Shown: positions 6,990 through 18,297 of the stretch, piece by piece
Position numbering within the stretch: the stretch's first letter is position 1
How the letters are laid out: the number at the start of each line of letters is the position of its first letter
IMG/VR virus record: IMGVR_UViG_3300025138_008090
Coordinates: 1-21,613 of that record
Direction: 5' to 3' (one strand)
DNA from: a virus
DNA length: 21,613 nt
Notes under the pieces: generated by a model
Databases searched by the model: none
What the model was told of the DNA's origin: nothing
The model's input: the letters and a program-made list of their open reading frames with translations, nothing else
Translations under genes and position numbers: made by a program

Positions 6990-7369
6990 TACTTACCCCA
7001 TAATCCTTTCTTAACGATTGTTGCCATAATTCCATAGTTGGATACATCAAGGTAAGCATCTTCCAATGGTTCATCCTTTACAGCTGACTCCCTATTGTTC
7101 ATCAGTAAAGTTTTTACCCTCTGTAACTTATCATTCATACGAAACCAAAGGCCTGTAAGTGATAACTTTACTTCTTCGGGTGTCTGTAACTGTGTACCAA
7201 CCGATATATTACCAGGCCCATAGTCGTGTTGTTTGTGTAGGAACAATTCATATTGTTCTCTTTGAATCTTCTTAAACTCTTCTGTCATCAACGGCCACTC
7301 TTTTTCCATTTGAGATATAATGTCACCAGCTGGTGATTTTGAGTGTGGTGTATCTTTTATAACTTTCAT
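6989..7369 (-). CDS. Nmad1/DUF1599-like nucleotide modification-associated protein
   Basis: A 126-residue protein with features of the DUF1599 (Nmad1) family: a helical protein with YELFLHKQHDYGPGNISVG, LTGLWFRMNDKLQRVKTLL, and a C-terminal EDAYLDVSNYGIMATIVKKG. The conserved acidic and arginine residues in these helices resemble all-alpha NTP-binding proteins of MazG type. The family is linked by gene neighbourhood to modified-base pathways in phages; the biochemical role is not settled. The open frame reaches a TTG at 7381, but ATG 7369 is a better start, with GGAG six bases upstream. It is the first gene after a strong promoter, so it heads the operon running to the glycosyltransferases. 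Confidence 0.8.
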   Translation of the reverse strand: MKVIKDTPHSKSPAGDIISQMEKEWPLMTEEFKKIQREQYELFLHKQHDYGPGNISVGTQLQTPEEVKLSLTGLWFRMNDKLQRVKTLLMNNRESAVKDEPLEDAYLDVSNYGIMATIVKKGLWGK

Positions 7370-7391
7370 ATACTTCTCCAATTCATACTTA

Positions 7392-7421
7392 AATATACAA
7401 CATTTTTTGTATATAAGTCAA
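7392..7421 (-). promoter_or_regulatory. Sigma70-like promoter for the Nmad1-to-glycosyltransferase operon
   Basis: On the minus strand, TTGACT (7421-7416) and TATATT (7397-7392) are separated by 18 bases. The predicted start lies about 7 bases downstream, leaving a leader of about 16 bases with a ribosome binding site before ATG 7369. The element fills the only gap between clamp-loader gene 62 and the next gene. It closely matches the polymerase promoter at 13380-13409, including TGTTGTATATT and the following AAGTAT-like bases. Within it, ATATACAA and TTGTATAT form an 8-bp inverted repeat around a 6-base loop, spanning spacer and -10. Confidence 0.7.
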
Positions 7422-7429
7422 GTGTTTTT

Positions 7430-7918
7430 TTATAAATTTCCCGCAGGTGAACTTCCTACTACATTAAGTCCAGCTTTGTGTATCTTCTTTTCTTCGACAC
7501 CCCACTTTCTACTAATTTCTCCTAACTCTAGCATACCACCTTCGGTTAAGAATAGCATATCAATATATTCTACAGCTTCTTTTTTACTAATCTGCTCGTG
7601 GTTACGTATTACATTAACTAACCAATTTGGATGATTCATATTATCTTTCCTCTTTGTATATTTTAACCATTGTTTACCCTTTGGTAAAATATTTGTGTAC
7701 AGTTTATACAACTCTTTTGGTTGTAACTTATATTTTTGTAATTCATTTACTACCTCTAACCATTCTGGTTTCATAGATAGAAATCTATTGACCATATAAT
7801 TAGACCAAGACTTCTTATCTTCATCCGATATTTCATCCCAATAATTAGGATTCTGAACATCTGTAATTTGTTTTATGTGGTCAAATAAACTTTTTTTCTT
7901 GATTACATTACTCGGCAT
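7430..7918 (-). CDS. 62: Clamp loader small subunit, gp62-like
   Basis: This 162-residue protein is probably the non-ATPase subunit of the T4-type clamp loader, which works with gp44 to place the gp45 ring on DNA. T4 gp62 is 187 residues. The family is highly divergent, so the call rests on the N-terminal SLFDHIKQITDVQNPNYWDE (10-29), the following NYMVNRFLSMKPEWLEVVNE (about 40-59) typical of marine T4-like gp62 proteins, the helical KGKQWLKYTKRK, and position downstream of clamp and ATPase genes. The ATG at 7918 overlaps the zinc-ribbon gene by 11 bases, implying coupled translation to balance subunits. The operon appears to end here: a new promoter starts within 9 bases of the stop. Confidence 0.75.
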   Translation of the reverse strand: MPSNVIKKKSLFDHIKQITDVQNPNYWDEISDEDKKSWSNYMVNRFLSMKPEWLEVVNELQKYKLQPKELYKLYTNILPKGKQWLKYTKRKDNMNHPNWLVNVIRNHEQISKKEAVEYIDMLFLTEGGMLELGEISRKWGVEEKKIHKAGLNVVGSSPAGNL

Positions 7919-10816: not shown

Positions 10817-13342
10817 TCAAAAAAATCTTTCCATTGTTTTGGTAGCATCAGTTGGTTCACCCCAACCAAGTGCTTCATAAAACATCATTATTTTTTTATG
10901 TAAAGTTTGTTTGTAAAGTTTTTCTGGATTAATAAATTGTTTGATAAATGATATAATTTCAGGTGGATCTTCATGTCCTTTATATCCTATAGTATCTAAC
11001 CCAAGTGGATTATTTTTTAGATACACCCATTTAATTTTTTCTCCATTATATATCGGTGTATATCGTCTTGATATTTTAAGGTGTTTTAACATATCATTAT
11101 AGAACAACGCACTCTTCACATGGATTGGTGTTCCTAACTTATATGCTTTAAATATAGCACCACCCTTAACCTTATATTTAGTGACCTTCTTAACACCTGT
11201 TGGATTAGCTATCTTATCAAAATCCATCAACTTCATACTGTTCTTAAAATTTAATACAAATTTATCCAACTGTTCTTTTGGTACATCCATCAGTATATCT
11301 TCTAACAACTTACTCAACATATCTCTCATAGCAGTTGGGAAACTTGACCTAACTGTATCTAAACCCTTTACCATCAGTTTATTTACTTTCTTACCATTGT
11401 CATTGATAATTTTTAAACCATATCTTTTCTTGGTAACAAATAAACCACTCTTAGCAATAACCTCTTGTTTAATATCAAAACGATGTTTGTCCAAGTTACA
11501 GAATTTCTTAGCAAAGTAATCATAACTATTATTAAGATACAACTGAACCTCATCAGCTATGTTTAAAATAGCCTTGGACATCTTATCCTCATCACTAATA
11601 TTAACACTTGGGAATCTTTTTTGAACCAATGGTGTAGCCGAGTAAAAAACAGAATCGGTATCAATATAAATACAATGGTCTTTATCATCACCTAATTCTT
11701 TATTGTAAAAGTTATTCGCTATCTTCTTTGTGAATTTAATAAGTGATTGACCTGTATAGGTTACAGCTTCTGCATTGTCCAAGTCATAGAATCTAAATAC
11801 TGGTAATCCCAATACGCCATATAAACTATTTAAAATAATTTTCTGTAGGTACTGTCTCCTATCAAAGTAATCTGATTGGTCTTTGTCACCTTCTTCATGA
11901 AATTTTCTTGATAGTTTTCTATACTCAACCCTTTCATCAAACCATTTTCTTAACAACGCTGGTAATAGTCCATCCTTATCTGTACGATACATTACACCAT
12001 TGGTAGCAACTCCAATGGAACGATTCTCTAAATAATCTTTTAACTCTGTATTTGTAAACCTACCTAATTCCTTTTCATTATTTGTTATGGTGTATGTTTT
12101 ATTTACACCTCTAATAAATTCTTCAGGATTCCAACCTTCCAATTTACCTATCTTCGTTTCTGGTGATATGTTTAATGACATAATACAAGATGGATACATG
12201 GAAGTAATATCCAAATCAAATACCCACTCGTGTTTACCTTTTTGTGGATCTTGAACATAAGCACCAGTAAATTTACCATCAGTTAGTTTATTTGGTCTTG
12301 GTGGTTTATTTGGTGCTATAATATTTTGTTTTTTCAAATAAGTTAGGATAGCACCCTCTAAGTATCGTGAACTCATAAAAACATCCTCATACGGTACATG
12401 ACCTAAGTGAGCAATACCCCTAGCAATCTCAATAAAATCTAACTTATCATCTAATTTTTTAACTAACTTTACATCTTGTAAGTTATATTCTACAAACTTA
12501 TCAATGTCATTGTCATATAAATCATTTAATGTTCCTTCATACTCAATCTTCTTTTCACCTACTTCAATACTTCCAATATTATCTAACCTATACGATGATT
12601 TCTCACTAAAAGTAAATTTTTTATATAAAATAAGATAATCCAATATACTAACACCAGCAATCTTGTATTTGCCTAAACCAAACTCAGTCCATTGTACATT
12701 CATAATCGGTGATAATAAACTAGCTACATTCTTACCAACTACATTACAAGCTCTATTATAAAGATATGGAACATCAAAAAACTCTACATTCCAACCTGTT
12801 AGTATTGTTGGTTTTATTTCCAAATACTTCTTAAAAAATGCATTTAATAAATCATACTCATCAGTAAAAGACTTTGTTATTTCATTACCGTTGGTCGATG
12901 TTTTAGTATCATCTAATTTTAATTTATTTGTAGTATCTAATACATAACAAAAGTATTCATCTGTTCTTGGATCGTTAAAACCTATAGCTGTGATTCGGTT
13001 CTCTGCTTTTTTTACATCAGGAAATCCTGTTGTAACTTCAACCTCAATGTCAAATATCATTGTGCGGTGACCAGTAGACACTTCATCTGAATCTGTATAG
13101 TTATCCACTAACACTCTTATTTCTGGATTAACATCTGACTCGAATAAGCCTGATTGGTCTTTCTCGTATTTGTTTATTCGTTTTAACCTATCACCATATA
13201 GTGATATGTAAGTTCCACTTTTATTTTTTATATAAGCATACTTTTTATAACGAAACGTTTGATGACCAAATTTGTCATCCCAAATATGCATTTTATTTAT
13301 TCGTCTATCGTAATATATATTTTGATATATAACTAACTCCAA
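10817..13342 (-). CDS. 43: Family B DNA polymerase with 3'-5' exonuclease, gp43-like
   Basis: This 841-residue enzyme is the replicative polymerase (T4 gp43 is 898). Counting from TTG 13342: Exo I FDIE (D98, E100); Exo II NVEFFDVPYL (D190); Exo III Y286 to D290; polymerase motif A DLDITSMYPS (376-385); motif B K501 with NSLYG (505-509); KKRYGLK (638-644); motif C YIDTDS (559-564). Both active sites look intact. The C-terminus ends ERFF, fitting a clamp-binding tail as in T4-type polymerases. No ATG lies near the N-terminus. The longest frame uses TTG at 13342, after an in-frame stop two codons upstream, and lacks a ribosome site. GGAG precedes an in-frame ATA at 13330 by six bases, so the real start may be ATA. 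A strong promoter lies just upstream. Confidence 0.96.
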   Translation of the reverse strand: MELVIYQNIYYDRRINKMHIWDDKFGHQTFRYKKYAYIKNKSGTYISLYGDRLKRINKYEKDQSGLFESDVNPEIRVLVDNYTDSDEVSTGHRTMIFDIEVEVTTGFPDVKKAENRITAIGFNDPRTDEYFCYVLDTTNKLKLDDTKTSTNGNEITKSFTDEYDLLNAFFKKYLEIKPTILTGWNVEFFDVPYLYNRACNVVGKNVASLLSPIMNVQWTEFGLGKYKIAGVSILDYLILYKKFTFSEKSSYRLDNIGSIEVGEKKIEYEGTLNDLYDNDIDKFVEYNLQDVKLVKKLDDKLDFIEIARGIAHLGHVPYEDVFMSSRYLEGAILTYLKKQNIIAPNKPPRPNKLTDGKFTGAYVQDPQKGKHEWVFDLDITSMYPSCIMSLNISPETKIGKLEGWNPEEFIRGVNKTYTITNNEKELGRFTNTELKDYLENRSIGVATNGVMYRTDKDGLLPALLRKWFDERVEYRKLSRKFHEEGDKDQSDYFDRRQYLQKIILNSLYGVLGLPVFRFYDLDNAEAVTYTGQSLIKFTKKIANNFYNKELGDDKDHCIYIDTDSVFYSATPLVQKRFPSVNISDEDKMSKAILNIADEVQLYLNNSYDYFAKKFCNLDKHRFDIKQEVIAKSGLFVTKKRYGLKIINDNGKKVNKLMVKGLDTVRSSFPTAMRDMLSKLLEDILMDVPKEQLDKFVLNFKNSMKLMDFDKIANPTGVKKVTKYKVKGGAIFKAYKLGTPIHVKSALFYNDMLKHLKISRRYTPIYNGEKIKWVYLKNNPLGLDTIGYKGHEDPPEIISFIKQFINPEKLYKQTLHKKIMMFYEALGWGEPTDATKTMERFF

Positions 13343-13379
13343 CTGTTATAGGTTGTAAAATCCCCATTTTCGATACCTT

Positions 13380-13409
13380 AATATACAACAAAAAACCTAT
13401 ACTTGTCAA
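13380..13409 (-). promoter_or_regulatory. Sigma70-like promoter for the polymerase/clamp/loader operon
   Basis: On the minus strand, a perfect -35 TTGACA (13409-13404) is followed after 18 bases by TATATT (13385-13380). The spacer ends TGTTG, and AAGGTAT follows the -10, as in the promoter at 7392-7421. The predicted start is near 13373, about 30 to 45 bases before the polymerase start. It lies just downstream of the receptor terminator, so transcription is re-initiated here. Confidence 0.75.
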
Positions 13410-13422
13410 GTACTTTTTTGAT

Positions 13423-13461: not shown

Positions 13462-16200
13462 TTAGAAACTAACAGCAAGTCCTATGTTGTAGTGCCTTGG
13501 TGTTCCCAAGAATACTTCAGCATTATGAGCTAGGTGAAGTTTATCACCGTACCCATTGTACTTACTATTGTCAACTGCATCTTGGACATAAACGTCATCA
13601 AGAGCATTAAAAACATGACCACTAAGTGTCACATCATACCCACCAATTGCTGGTAGTTTGTATGAAAAGTGTAGGTCAAGTTTAGAATAGCCAGGAGCTT
13701 TCCAAACCTGTGTCCTATCAGCATCACCGTCAATCTCACGAGAATCAGGTGACCAATCAGCGTAGTTATCATCATACATTCTGTAAAGACCTTGTATGTT
13801 AAGTCCTTCGACTGGTTTAATGGTTAATCCACCAACATAAGCTGTCTGTGGCATATCACCAACCATAAGTTCGTTAAGAGCGTAAGTGTATTCAGTAGTA
13901 GTCTGACCGATAACTTGGTTATCGTCATTATACTCCATCTCTTGATAATCACCATCGGCATCACCATCAAACTCCCACTTACCTTTACTAAATGCTAAGT
14001 CTAAATCAACCATTTCGTGAAGAGCAACTTTCGTTTCAACTTCCCAACCTGTATGACTTTGGTTAACACCTTTCAAGTAGATAATATCCGTATCACCGGA
14101 ATCACCAGCACCTGTTTCAACAGATTTGGTAAGGTTTCTATCTTTCCATTGAGTATTATAAGAACTCAATTTAAGATCTACATTACCACTTGCATACTTA
14201 CCACCAAACTCGAAACTTGTAAATTTCTCGTTATCTGGATTAGTAGCTACAGTACCATCATAGGCAATCACATTGTCTAAGATAGGTGGTTTTTCAACAT
14301 ACCCACCATTTACAAATGCAGACATTCTATCATCGAGGTTATATACACCACCACCTTTCACTTGGAAAGTTGTGATAGCATCAGCCTCAACTACACTATT
14401 GTCTGTAGAGAAATGGTCTTTGTATGTATATCCGATAGTTGATATTCCACTCATACCATAAAGGTTGAACTTCTGAATATCATACTTACCTTGTACGAAT
14501 GCCCCAAACCAATCAACGGTAGTTTCGTTGTGATAAGCAATTATATCACCTAAACCAACTTTCTTACCATCAGGTGCATTATCGTCAGCAAAGTCTACAT
14601 AGTAGTCTCCACCAAGTAAGTCACGAACCTCACGAGCATGCTCTATTCCAGCAGTTCTCCAATCGATACCAATCTGAACTTCGAGTTCATCTGATACATC
14701 ATAGTTTAATTTAGAAATCAAACCATAAGTGTTTTGACGATTGATTGAGTTACGAAGAATACCATCTGAACGATTTTCAGTATCAGACCACGCTGAATCT
14801 ACATTAGCAGAGTTCTCAGCAATCTGACTATTCCAATCCCAAGTCCACGGTGAACTTGCATACCAAGCACTTCCTTCTACTGCAGGAAATCGGTTTACAC
14901 TACCATAGGTACCAGTACCACCACCAGAACCACCACTCCAATAAGCAACAGAACTTAGTCTAACTTGGTCATTTACATCATAAAAATGATTTATATTGAC
15001 AAGTGGTTTATGGAAAAAGTTCTCTCTTTCATTTAAAAAATCAGAACTAAACCTATCTGTAGTGCGGTCACCATACATATACCAATACTGTTGACCTGTG
15101 TATGAAGCATCAATTGGGGCAACATTCTGATTAAAGAATCTACCAGCCTCATGTTCAAACTTCTCACCAGCAACATAAGCTGAATCATTATATCCATCAA
15201 TACCACCAGCTAACTCTTGTGAGTAGGTAGCAATATTCTGTTTATATAGATTTTGTCCATGACGCTGTGGAGCACCAATTGCATATAGCTCAAATCTTTG
15301 GTCATCAGACACAGCATAAGAACCACCAACGTAGTAAGCCCATGCATCTGTCCAAGTTCCATCAATGAACCCATTACCAGTTTTACGAACAATCGTTCCA
15401 CTAAGTGCTAGTTTATCATTGATTAGACCTGAATTATAATTCAAAGTAGTTTTTAGGAATCCACCCTCACCTACTTCTTGTTTGAACTTACCACCCTTTT
15501 CTTGAGCAGCAGGATCTGTGATTATGTTCATAGTTCCACCAATTGATGGTGTAGCTAGATTAACAGCGGATAGACCTCGTTGCATCTGAATGGAAGATGT
15601 GGCATCACCAACACCATCCCAATTAGACCAATAAACCCATCCGTTCTCCATATCATTCTGGGGAACACCATTAATCATAACCGCAACATTTCGTTGGTTG
15701 AATCCACGAACATTGATACGAGCATCACCCGCACCACCACCTTGTTGAGTAGCATATACACTTGGCGTCATATTAAGTGCCATTGGAATGTCTTGTGAAC
15801 CAAGACGAACTTCCATTTCAGCCTTATCTATCGTAGTGTAAGCTACAGGTGTTTTTTCATCAGCTCTTGAAGCCAAAACTTCAATATCTGACATAGTGAG
15901 TGCATTAACTTCTAAAGTGAAATTAAGTGTACCCACGATATCACCCACCTTAACCGAATTGGTTATAGATGAATGCCCAATGTATGAAGCAGTTAATGTA
16001 TAATCGCCTTCAGCACCGACATCAATAGTGTATTTACCAGACTCATCTGTTACACCACCTTTATCCGTACCTTCGACTACAATATTAGCTCCAGTCAATG
16101 GTTTACCCTCACTATTAACAACTCCAACAATCGATTGTCCATAAATGAAAATCGGTGTCAAAAATGTTAATAACAAAGATGTTAGATTGCGTTTATTCAT
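13462..16200 (-). CDS. TonB-dependent outer-membrane receptor (carboxypeptidase-regulatory-like domain, plug, barrel)
   Basis: This 912-residue protein is a complete outer-membrane active-transport receptor. From ATG 16200: a signal peptide (MNKRNLTSLLLTFLTPIFIY, likely cleaved before Q22); a carboxypeptidase-regulatory-like domain (23-97) with GKPLTGANIVVEGTDKGGVT; a TonB-box-like MSDIEVLAS (103-111); a plug (about 114-230) with INVRGFNQRNVAVMINGVP and GGTMNIIT; then a barrel of about 680 residues rich in aromatics, ending PRHYNIGLAVSF with the terminal Phe used for outer-membrane assembly. The frame extends to 16236, but ATG 16200 has GAGGAG seven bases upstream and gives a proper signal peptide. 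Base composition looks richer in G+C than the flanking genes (sampled lines of 35 to 48 percent against 23 to 38). The domain set is typical of Bacteroidota and relatives. Substrate unknown; being in a phage it is probably host-derived. Confidence 0.93.
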   Translation of the reverse strand: MNKRNLTSLLLTFLTPIFIYGQSIVGVVNSEGKPLTGANIVVEGTDKGGVTDESGKYTIDVGAEGDYTLTASYIGHSSITNSVKVGDIVGTLNFTLEVNALTMSDIEVLASRADEKTPVAYTTIDKAEMEVRLGSQDIPMALNMTPSVYATQQGGGAGDARINVRGFNQRNVAVMINGVPQNDMENGWVYWSNWDGVGDATSSIQMQRGLSAVNLATPSIGGTMNIITDPAAQEKGGKFKQEVGEGGFLKTTLNYNSGLINDKLALSGTIVRKTGNGFIDGTWTDAWAYYVGGSYAVSDDQRFELYAIGAPQRHGQNLYKQNIATYSQELAGGIDGYNDSAYVAGEKFEHEAGRFFNQNVAPIDASYTGQQYWYMYGDRTTDRFSSDFLNERENFFHKPLVNINHFYDVNDQVRLSSVAYWSGGSGGGTGTYGSVNRFPAVEGSAWYASSPWTWDWNSQIAENSANVDSAWSDTENRSDGILRNSINRQNTYGLISKLNYDVSDELEVQIGIDWRTAGIEHAREVRDLLGGDYYVDFADDNAPDGKKVGLGDIIAYHNETTVDWFGAFVQGKYDIQKFNLYGMSGISTIGYTYKDHFSTDNSVVEADAITTFQVKGGGVYNLDDRMSAFVNGGYVEKPPILDNVIAYDGTVATNPDNEKFTSFEFGGKYASGNVDLKLSSYNTQWKDRNLTKSVETGAGDSGDTDIIYLKGVNQSHTGWEVETKVALHEMVDLDLAFSKGKWEFDGDADGDYQEMEYNDDNQVIGQTTTEYTYALNELMVGDMPQTAYVGGLTIKPVEGLNIQGLYRMYDDNYADWSPDSREIDGDADRTQVWKAPGYSKLDLHFSYKLPAIGGYDVTLSGHVFNALDDVYVQDAVDNSKYNGYGDKLHLAHNAEVFLGTPRHYNIGLAVSF

Positions 16201-16229
16201 AAACGTTCTCCTCTTTTTGTTATTGTTAA

Positions 16230-16263
16230 GACGCATTTTTCCACAGGTGCGTCGTCTGCCTGT
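16230..16263 (-). promoter_or_regulatory. Potential H-type pseudoknot in the receptor mRNA leader
   Basis: In the minus-strand RNA, ACAGG (16263-16259) can pair with CCTGT (16247-16243), and GACGCA (16253-16248) with TGCGTC (16235-16230). The two helices interleave: loop CAGAC, no bases between helices, then the A-rich loop GGAAAAA. This is the topology of an H-type pseudoknot, or two mutually exclusive hairpins. It lies 17 bases before the GAGGAG ribosome site. It could be a translational operator or small riboswitch; the ligand is unknown, and short stems can occur by chance. Confidence 0.4.
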
Positions 16264-16281
16264 CCGCTTTTTTGTATGTGA

Positions 16282-16310
16282 ATTTTAATTTGCATAATCT
16301 TGGTCGTCAT
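16282..16310 (-). promoter_or_regulatory. Weak candidate promoter for the receptor gene
   Basis: ATGACG (16310-16305) and TAAAAT (16287-16282) are spaced by 17 bases on the minus strand, matching 4 and 5 of 6 sigma70 consensus positions. The -10 overlaps the reductase stop codon. If used, it would put the pseudoknot in the receptor's own leader. The match is modest and may be chance; read-through from the reductase is the alternative. Confidence 0.25.
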
Positions 16311-18294
16311 TATCACCAGTCATTGGTACTATTTCACAAGAATCATTATTACAAAATTTATCTATTTCTGCCTCTTCATTCTTAATTACGCCAAAAGATA
16401 ACTTACCAAGTTTCTTAACTTGTCTATTATATTCTTTCTCATCAATTGCTTCATATGGCATTTGTTTATATGCTCCTAATTCGTGTCTTGGTAATAAACT
16501 AATACCCTTTAAGTGATATTGATAATAATTTAAAGTTGGTGCAATTTGGTCTGCTTCTGTTTCTGGATTAAATGTAACCGTACAACTAACTTGGTTGTCC
16601 GCCCAATGTCGTTGTAGAAAAGCGGCTAAACTGAATTGTTCCCAAATCGAAAGTTCAGCCGCAGTTCTAATCCCCTCACCGACATCTACCGGCACCTCTA
16701 CTACCATCGTTGTATCTTCTGAACCAAAGGCTGGTTCTAATTTATAATTAGCTTTCTTTAATGGTTCTAATAATTCTGAATGCTTGGATAACCTTACTCT
16801 CCTAATGTAAAAACGACTCTCAGGATAGTGTAATCCGGGAGTCGCTCCTGCTAGTAGTGAAACTGTTCCTGATGGTTTTACTGATGTTGTCTTAATTGAC
16901 TTTGGTACAGCAAACCAATCTGAATACATTTTATCCCATTCTTGTATAACATCATAACCAGCATTTAACCAATCTTTTAATTCACCTAAACCACGATTAG
17001 TAATAAACTGAGCAACACCACTTACCGAACATCCAATTCTTCTGTTTCTCAACATAACTCGATTGGTATCACTCCAATGTGTTTTACCTAATGTTACTGA
17101 TTTAGCATACAAATAAGCATACTTTAATGTACGAGCATAATCCTCAAAGTCATCGTGGTTACTTGGAAATGTTTCTACCAAGCAACATAACTCGTAACTC
17201 TCCAATGATTGTTCCAAACAAGGATTACCACCAGCAACTCTATGGTCTTTATTATCTCCACCATTTTTCATACGAGAATACTTTCTCATATTTTCTAACC
17301 ATGCAAATCCAGGCTCACCATTATCCACAATTCGTTTGGCAGCTTCTGTATAATCCATACCCAATTCTGCGAATATACTATTATTACTTGTCCATCCATA
17401 TTGCTCCCTATGTGGGTTAACTTTATAATTTTTTAAATCTAAATATTCTTCATCATCTGGTTCACCGAACACAATCTCCGCAGTACGTCTTACATTCCCT
17501 GCTACGACACATTTACCAATAAGGTTCATTATGTCTACAATAGTTGTTACGGTGATTGGCTCTCCACTATTTTTCTCTAATACTTTTCTGATTTCTTCAT
17601 GTACTTCTAAAAGAGGTTCGTGACCACTTGAAACTCCACCAAAACCTGCAATTGTTTCACCCGCTGGTCTGACTTCTGTATAATCAAATTCAATTGGTGA
17701 ATGTCCATGAAAATAACTTTCTAGTAGTAGTTTAAGAGATTCAACCCAACCCTCACGAGTATCTGGTATCACATATACATCTTCATCCTTATCACGATTA
17801 ATACCTTTAACTATAATCTCACCTGCACCCTTACAATCGAATCCTACACCCACTCCTAACATACTTGCATCCATCAAAAATGTAAATGGTTTAGCATAAT
17901 CTTCTTTAATTGTTGATGTTGATACAAATGCACAGTTGTTGAGGGCGGCGTACAAACCTTTTTCTTCAGTTATGGCTGTTCCCATAGCCCAAAGACCTCG
18001 GCCGGGTGGCAAAAACTTCATGTTGAAGATACGCTCATACATCTCTTGTGCAGACCTTTGAGCTTGCCACGGATTCCACCCCAATTGATGTTGGTCAATC
18101 CAATTCTTTTGCATAGAGTAAGTTCCCTCTACGACTCGTTGTACGGTTTCCCACCAACGTTCATTCTTTCCATCTTCCTTAATTCTTGAATAGGTTCTCA
18201 TATAAACTAACTCACCCAATCCATTAAAACCAAATGGTGGTTTTTTTCTTTTGTATTTATTTATAAACTTTTCCGATAACGTAAATTTTTCCAT
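16285..18294 (-). CDS. nrdJ: Adenosylcobalamin-dependent class II ribonucleoside-triphosphate reductase
   Basis: This 669-residue enzyme makes deoxynucleotides from ribonucleotides using a radical generated by coenzyme B12. Counting from ATG 18294: FLPPGRGLWAMGT (94-106); C121; the active-site loop NPCLE with N357, C359 and E361; C370; SVKPSGT (471-477); and the C-terminal redox pair C648/C653. Cysteine spacings match the monomeric Lactobacillus leichmannii enzyme (C119, C408, C419, C731/C736): 11 residues between the two central ones and 5 in the C-terminal pair. The stretch between C121 and C359 is about 50 residues shorter, perhaps trimming the allosteric insertion. The longest frame starts at TTG 18297; ATG 18294 with AAGGA six bases upstream is preferred. 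No second subunit is expected for this class. Confidence 0.95.
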   Translation of the reverse strand: MEKFTLSEKFINKYKRKKPPFGFNGLGELVYMRTYSRIKEDGKNERWWETVQRVVEGTYSMQKNWIDQHQLGWNPWQAQRSAQEMYERIFNMKFLPPGRGLWAMGTAITEEKGLYAALNNCAFVSTSTIKEDYAKPFTFLMDASMLGVGVGFDCKGAGEIIVKGINRDKDEDVYVIPDTREGWVESLKLLLESYFHGHSPIEFDYTEVRPAGETIAGFGGVSSGHEPLLEVHEEIRKVLEKNSGEPITVTTIVDIMNLIGKCVVAGNVRRTAEIVFGEPDDEEYLDLKNYKVNPHREQYGWTSNNSIFAELGMDYTEAAKRIVDNGEPGFAWLENMRKYSRMKNGGDNKDHRVAGGNPCLEQSLESYELCCLVETFPSNHDDFEDYARTLKYAYLYAKSVTLGKTHWSDTNRVMLRNRRIGCSVSGVAQFITNRGLGELKDWLNAGYDVIQEWDKMYSDWFAVPKSIKTTSVKPSGTVSLLAGATPGLHYPESRFYIRRVRLSKHSELLEPLKKANYKLEPAFGSEDTTMVVEVPVDVGEGIRTAAELSIWEQFSLAAFLQRHWADNQVSCTVTFNPETEADQIAPTLNYYQYHLKGISLLPRHELGAYKQMPYEAIDEKEYNRQVKKLGKLSFGVIKNEEAEIDKFCNNDSCEIVPMTGDNDDQDYAN

Positions 18295-18297
18295 CAA

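Follow-up and report, generated by a model that had tools for sequence, protein, structure and literature searches.

Comparison of homologous leaders shows that a conserved 38-nt element upstream of a phage TonB-dependent receptor (TBDR) gene is an H-type RNA pseudoknot of 36-38 nt with covariation in both helices. It is followed by an A-rich linker, predicted to be unpaired, and by a predicted hairpin that would bury the Shine-Dalgarno sequence and the start codon of the receptor. The pseudoknot structure and its assignment to the TBDR gene are near certain, the order of knot, unpaired A-rich linker and start hairpin is borne out by comparative sequence evidence, and the leader points to an undescribed RNA device controlling when the receptor is made. 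The element was studied in IMG/VR virus record IMGVR_UViG_3300025138_008090, a 21.6-kb stretch of DNA, referred to here as the window, whose minus strand carries T4-like replication genes. The features of the locus are as follows.

16285..18297, minus strand: adenosylcobalamin-dependent ribonucleotide reductase gene nrdJ, the usual upstream neighbour (Pfam and NCBIfam)
16230..16267 (core 16230-16263), minus strand: H-type pseudoknot, conserved 38-nt element (sequence, covariation, conservation)
16263-16259 with 16247-16243, minus strand: helix P1, ACAGG:CCUGU, 5 bp
16253-16248 with 16235-16230, minus strand: helix P2, GACGCA:UGCGUC, 6 bp
16258-16254, minus strand: loop L1, CAGAC, 5 nt
16242-16236, minus strand: loop L3, GGAAAAA, A-rich, 7 nt
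16214..16229, minus strand: A-rich, G-poor linker from pseudoknot to ribosome site, predicted unpaired
16208..16212, minus strand: Shine-Dalgarno AGGAG, conserved in homologous leaders
16184..16211, minus strand: predicted hairpin burying the Shine-Dalgarno and start codon (folding, co-evolution), its 3' strand within the first codons; consensus CGUAAUCU
16200-16198, minus strand: ATG start codon of the TBDR gene, the gene downstream of the leader
13462..16200, minus strand: TBDR gene, 912 aa (CarboxypepD_reg_2 and Plug in Pfam; synteny)

The minus-strand genes of the window include those for a RecA/UvsX-like protein, an exonuclease, a DnaB-type helicase, NrdJ, the TBDR and a family B DNA polymerase, among others; the RecA/UvsX name is a reading of the frame, and the other gene names were obtained via Pfam or NCBIfam. 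The TBDR gene itself is located between nrdJ and the DNA polymerase gene, and the pseudoknot is placed on the minus strand between the nrdJ stop (near 16285) and the TBDR ATG. Similarity of the receptor to SusC/RagA is weak (NCBIfam), and its structure prediction, with a mean pLDDT of 49.6, was too poor for a structure search. A SusC-like receptor of a megaphage has already been reported (PMC9723777). The polymerase (10817-13342) has its closest GenBank phage relative in Microcystis phage Mel-JY01, at 46% identity and well before other phages. Promoter-like TTGAC...TATATT stretches are found on the minus strand at about 7383-7440 and 13360-13420, ahead of two genes whose starts are near 7369 and 13342, and the polymerase gene in loci L418 and L427 is likewise preceded by TTGAC stretches. 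Just 5' of the knot, at 16274-16282 on the minus strand, lies TTCACATAC, possibly a promoter or a processing site. We rejected it as a dedicated promoter, since it occurs only once in the window and is present in many, not all, of the homologous leaders.

The original prediction of interleaved helices of 5 and 6 bp with an A-rich third loop at 16230-16263 proved exact in its coordinates, and covariation confirms it. Read 5' to 3' from 16267 on the minus strand, the element is GCGG-ACAGG-CAGAC-GACGCA-CCUGU-GGAAAAA-UGCGUC, in which the helices interleave without a gap and there is no L2. No other Watson-Crick pair of interleaved 5- and 6-bp helices with at least 7 GC pairs exists in the window, and none was found in 20 shuffled windows. 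Nested folding of the single pseudoknot sequence gave no signal (z about -0.5 to -1), because nested-folding programs cannot form the knot. We assessed covariation in 72 distinct 38-nt sequences, using shuffles and slid partners as controls. Standard pairs occupy 97.3% of the pair cells, compared with at most 51% for slid partners, and the covariation score is 0.251 as against 0.115 ± 0.008 for shuffled sequences. Both sides change in 6 of the 11 pairs, each helix having three double-changing pairs. Because these counts had to be guarded against relatedness, the pair changes were also placed on the branches of a receptor tree built from 128 distinct full-length proteins, which gave 40 pairing-preserving double changes compared with 0-4 for slid partners. 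In the inner pairs, G-U fills nine cells and A-C none, the pattern that an RNA of minus-strand sequence should show.

Near-invariant positions within the pseudoknot are the CAG of L1, the AAAAA of L3 and the junction nucleotides. The invariance of GG, CRCACC and AAAAAUGYG was partly imposed by the search pattern, although it is also seen in the unbiased leader lists; that pattern left the covarying positions free. The check proposed with the original prediction, covariation over homologous leaders, was run with a view to pairs broken without compensation, and none was found. The claim that the pseudoknot stands in the 5' leader of the receptor gene is strongly supported by this covariation and by the double changes on the receptor tree.

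To describe the distribution of the element, we started from the protein. A search with the TBDR of the window returned at least 328 related IMG/VR stretches, and the 80 best loci were used. Leaders were extracted without asking for the motif; 78 loci had sufficient sequence, and the pseudoknot was found in each of them. Repeating the protein search with a receptor of 63% identity yielded 63 readable leaders, a few of them from contigs already sampled, and the pseudoknot is present in every one. Combined, the two unselected sets place it before the TBDR gene in 141 of 141 homologous phage loci, with variants in length or loop such as L006, which has a 4-nt loop 3, and L510, which has a different loop 1. 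Scanning with the pattern gave at least 117 stretches, six of which are chance matches; among the listed matches with enough sequence, all non-chance ones precede a TBDR gene, L187 excepted.

A search of Rfam 15 gave no match at gathering score, the best being only at chance level (E > 1), and a pattern scan of genome contigs gave chance matches only. The Bacteroidota samples comprised 296 genomes of one order and 395 of the phylum, partly overlapping, and contained one convincing match, on a MAG contig, plus one weak partial match. We regard the convincing match as phage because the end of nrdJ lies upstream on its contig. The pseudoknot is missing from bacterial homologues of the receptor, whose identity reaches 50%, and a distant gut-phage TBDR homologue has no comparable leader. 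A literature search, whose coverage mostly excluded subscription papers and bioRxiv preprints, found no description of the element. The element is a structured RNA family that is absent from Rfam 15 and, as far as searched, confined to marine phages.

By comparison of gene order, the pseudoknot travels with the TBDR gene, and nrdJ is not required. In a reverse test, loci were collected starting from nrdJ instead of the TBDR. Where nrdJ has no TBDR gene downstream (L372, L418, L427, L431 and L435) there is no pseudoknot, and where glnA is inserted between nrdJ and the TBDR gene (L390, L391 and L404) the pseudoknot is found after glnA, directly before the TBDR gene. An interpretation of the element as the 3' UTR of nrdJ was rejected, because it is missing after nrdJ without a TBDR gene and is shifted with the TBDR gene past glnA. 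The identity of glnA (glutamine synthetase) was taken from the translated start only; a glnA-like gene also directly follows nrdJ in L359, L380, L388, L423, L430, L431, L433 and L435. In L187, around 5121, the TBDR gene has been deleted, and the whole leader persists with the first codons as a scar; a glycosyltransferase-like frame replaces the receptor there, making this locus a natural knock-out. The leader and TBDR gene of L075 are found beside other genes. Among phage records of 83-165 kb, exactly one pseudoknot copy is present in 8 of 8 with a TBDR gene, compared with 0 of 3 records that have no TBDR gene next to nrdJ.

The strong ribosome site that had been predicted downstream of the knot is present, with AGGAG at 16212-16208 and the ATG at its listed position, but it is buried in a second conserved hairpin that the prediction had missed. 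Folding of 91 distinct stretches, from GGAG to about codon 9, predicts the start hairpin in all 91 (mean z -2.0, 93% below -1), and the TBDR start is the only one with z < -1 among 16 gene starts in the window. The 3' strand of the hairpin consists of early codons, usually CGU AAU CU, and the 5' strand of the bases between the Shine-Dalgarno sequence and the AUG. The two strands co-vary, as in ACGUUU/AAACGU, ACUUUU/AAAAGU, ACGC/GCGU and GAUUAU/AUAAUC. Native strand combinations reach -5.83 kcal/mol, compared with -4.40 ± 0.26 kcal/mol for permuted ones, and 0 of 2000 permutations are as good; this permutation of UTRs and codons used one representative per distinct 5' strand and models relatedness only partly. 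The predicted, conserved hairpin would hide the ribosome-binding site (RBS) together with the start codon, and it co-evolves with the early codons of the receptor.

The host is probably Bacteroidota-like, judging by the relatives of the receptor and the single MAG contig. In Bacteroidia, the ribosomes keep their anti-Shine-Dalgarno hidden and normally ignore Shine-Dalgarno sequences (PMC9976891), yet the leader keeps its AGGAG. The bS21 genes in 3 of 11 related phage records (L523, L524 and L525) are of interest because bS21 helps Bacteroidia ribosomes to hide the anti-Shine-Dalgarno (for the hiding, see PMC9976891).

The linker between knot and ribosome site is usually 17-20 nt long in homologues, with 56% A and 6% G, and is predicted to be 84% unpaired. 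In each of 300 permutations, the native combination of linker and RBS region showed less pairing than the permuted ones, which implies that selection keeps the linker single-stranded. The Shine-Dalgarno sequence lies 17 nt past P2, outside the knot. No clear co-evolution was detected between the knot and the RBS hairpin, 13 of 300 permutations being as good. This argues against a simple switch by strand exchange between the two, and this candidate was rejected. Two further candidates were also discarded: an upstream ORF starting from the conserved AAAAAUG, given that the frames are random (44/35/33) and the peptides unrelated, and a -1 frameshift pseudoknot, given that nrdJ stops just upstream, the A-run is not conserved and the AUG in P2 opens random frames.

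As the best explanation of these patterns we tentatively propose, by analogy and at somewhat less than an even chance, a translational control leader of two parts, with knot and linker forming what would be a standby (docking) site for ribosomes. For the regulatory mechanism we infer that the hairpin would keep the TBDR mRNA poorly translated by default, that the knot and the single-stranded linker would dock the 30S subunit along with ribosomal protein S1, and that these would wait beside the hairpin and then capture or unwind it; anything blocking or remodelling the knot would switch TBDR synthesis. We consider a standby site the most likely arrangement because the same order of knot, linker and hidden RBS is found in tisB, and a knot with a sequestered RBS in timP. 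In tisB mRNA the pseudoknot, a single-stranded stretch and a sequestered RBS were shown by experiment to be required for translation, and binding of S1 and 30S depends on the pseudoknot (PMC7708055). The phage leader similarly combines an H-type pseudoknot, an unpaired stretch adjoining it and, downstream, an RBS sequestered by predicted local structure. The tisB knot differs in having stems of 9 and 5 bp, in lying about 100 nt upstream, whereas the phage pseudoknot is much nearer to the RBS, in being exposed by processing, and in serving a toxin gene. Binding of S1 has been shown for tisB and is a prediction only for the phage leader, and no sequence relation between the two was seen; S1-binding pseudoknots have been described as topologically diverse (PMC7708055).

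In timP mRNA, a covariation-supported pseudoknot likewise lies upstream of a sequestered RBS and is required for translation (PMC11228461), but it is a long-range knot joining two stem-loops, in an enterobacterial toxin gene that is an antitoxin sRNA target. What counts against a standby site is the near-invariance of L1 (CAG) and L3 (AAAAA), in contrast to the diversity of S1-binding pseudoknots, which suggests specific recognition or tight tertiary packing. The closeness of the knot to the RBS, compared with tisB, and the normal disregard of Bacteroidia ribosomes for Shine-Dalgarno sequences (PMC9976891) also count against it. If the proposed role is true, these viruses control, at the level of translation, a transporter that they bring into the host envelope. 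With dozens of compensatory changes across the gene tree and a tie to one phage gene, the RNA family also makes a compact, well-defined case in which to ask whether phages of Bacteroidota-like hosts, where ribosomes normally disregard Shine-Dalgarno sequences, load ribosomes by the knot-plus-linker standby route described for toxin mRNAs.

The same constancy of L1 and L3 seems to exceed the needs of non-specific docking, and for this reason a small metabolite-sensing riboswitch, with the knot as aptamer and a ligand altering access to the RBS hairpin, is a serious possibility, albeit an unlikely one; metabolite sensing was one of the two roles suggested with the original prediction, the other being an operator for a phage protein. 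Riboswitches of the preQ1-I type are H-type knots of about 35 nt with an A-rich loop 3 and a short loop 1, and the RBS or a terminator belongs to their expression platform. The phage element is likewise compact, and its loop and junction nucleotides hardly vary. It resembles them in size and loops but differs in consensus and had no Rfam match; in addition, its Shine-Dalgarno sequence is neither inside the knot nor detectably paired with it, as it would be in a preQ1-I- or SAM-II-like switch, and this, together with the lack of clear co-evolution between the knot and the RBS hairpin, argues against a riboswitch. Its occurrence once in each genome, in front of a gene for a transporter, fits a riboswitch, and there is a precedent in the candidate cis-regulatory RNAs manA and wcaG, which are structured, lie beside metabolic genes of marine T4-like cyanophages (PMC2864571) and differ from the phage leader in sequence and in associated genes. 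Less compatible is the absence of the element from the bacterial receptor homologues and the Bacteroidota genomes searched, the one phage-contig match aside.

A ligand linked to the cargo of the receptor would be logical for such a riboswitch, and adenosylcobalamin is one guess because nrdJ, usually adjacent, needs it. This neighbour is the only source of the cobamide idea, and nrdJ is also found without the TBDR gene. A search around 20 loci with bacterial homologues revealed no cobalamin riboswitch; the gene neighbours of the homologues were uninformative, and a cobalamin link via the homologues was rejected. Some 4.5 kb separate the closest chromosomal homologue of the receptor from a B12-dependent acyl-CoA mutase-like gene (by reading; L353:14007-15974), a proximity that is probably coincidental. 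Less likely than a riboswitch in general is its specific form, a phage-only miniature of about 36 nt that would sense a nutrient, perhaps receptor cargo such as a cobamide for NrdJ, and set TBDR translation via the start hairpin.

Similarly doubtful is a protein operator, in which a phage or host protein would bind the pseudoknot and repress or activate TBDR translation in the manner of gp32. The original comparison with the T4 gene 32 leader holds as an analogy and not as membership. The T4/RB69 operator is also a phage mRNA leader, with a pseudoknot of about 28 nt and an A/U-rich unstructured stretch reaching the RBS (PMC535899), which the knot and A-rich single-stranded stretch resemble, and both the T4-like replication genes of the window and the selection for an unpaired linker agree with an operator. 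However, gene 32 control is autogenous through gp32 and its RBS is unstructured, with UUAAA repeats (PMC535899), whereas here the RBS is folded into a conserved hairpin and the downstream gene encodes a TBDR, not an SSB. Nor do the 8 phage records contain a further copy in front of any candidate regulator gene.

It is quite improbable that the knot serves only stability or insulation, blocking ribonucleases or separating cistrons while initiation is not regulated. Its position between cistrons, directly after nrdJ or glnA, would suit such a role, and the timP knot also raises the mRNA level (PMC11228461), but the phage knot occurs only before the TBDR gene and not after other operon genes, and the co-evolving RBS hairpin would be left unexplained. 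Chance complementarity, or a constraint at the DNA level only, has in its favour the ordinary nested folding of the single sequence and is refuted to the point of being negligible by the 40 double changes on tree branches compared with 0-4 in controls, by G-U without A-C intermediates in the inner pairs, and by the presence of the pseudoknot in all 141 unselected leaders.
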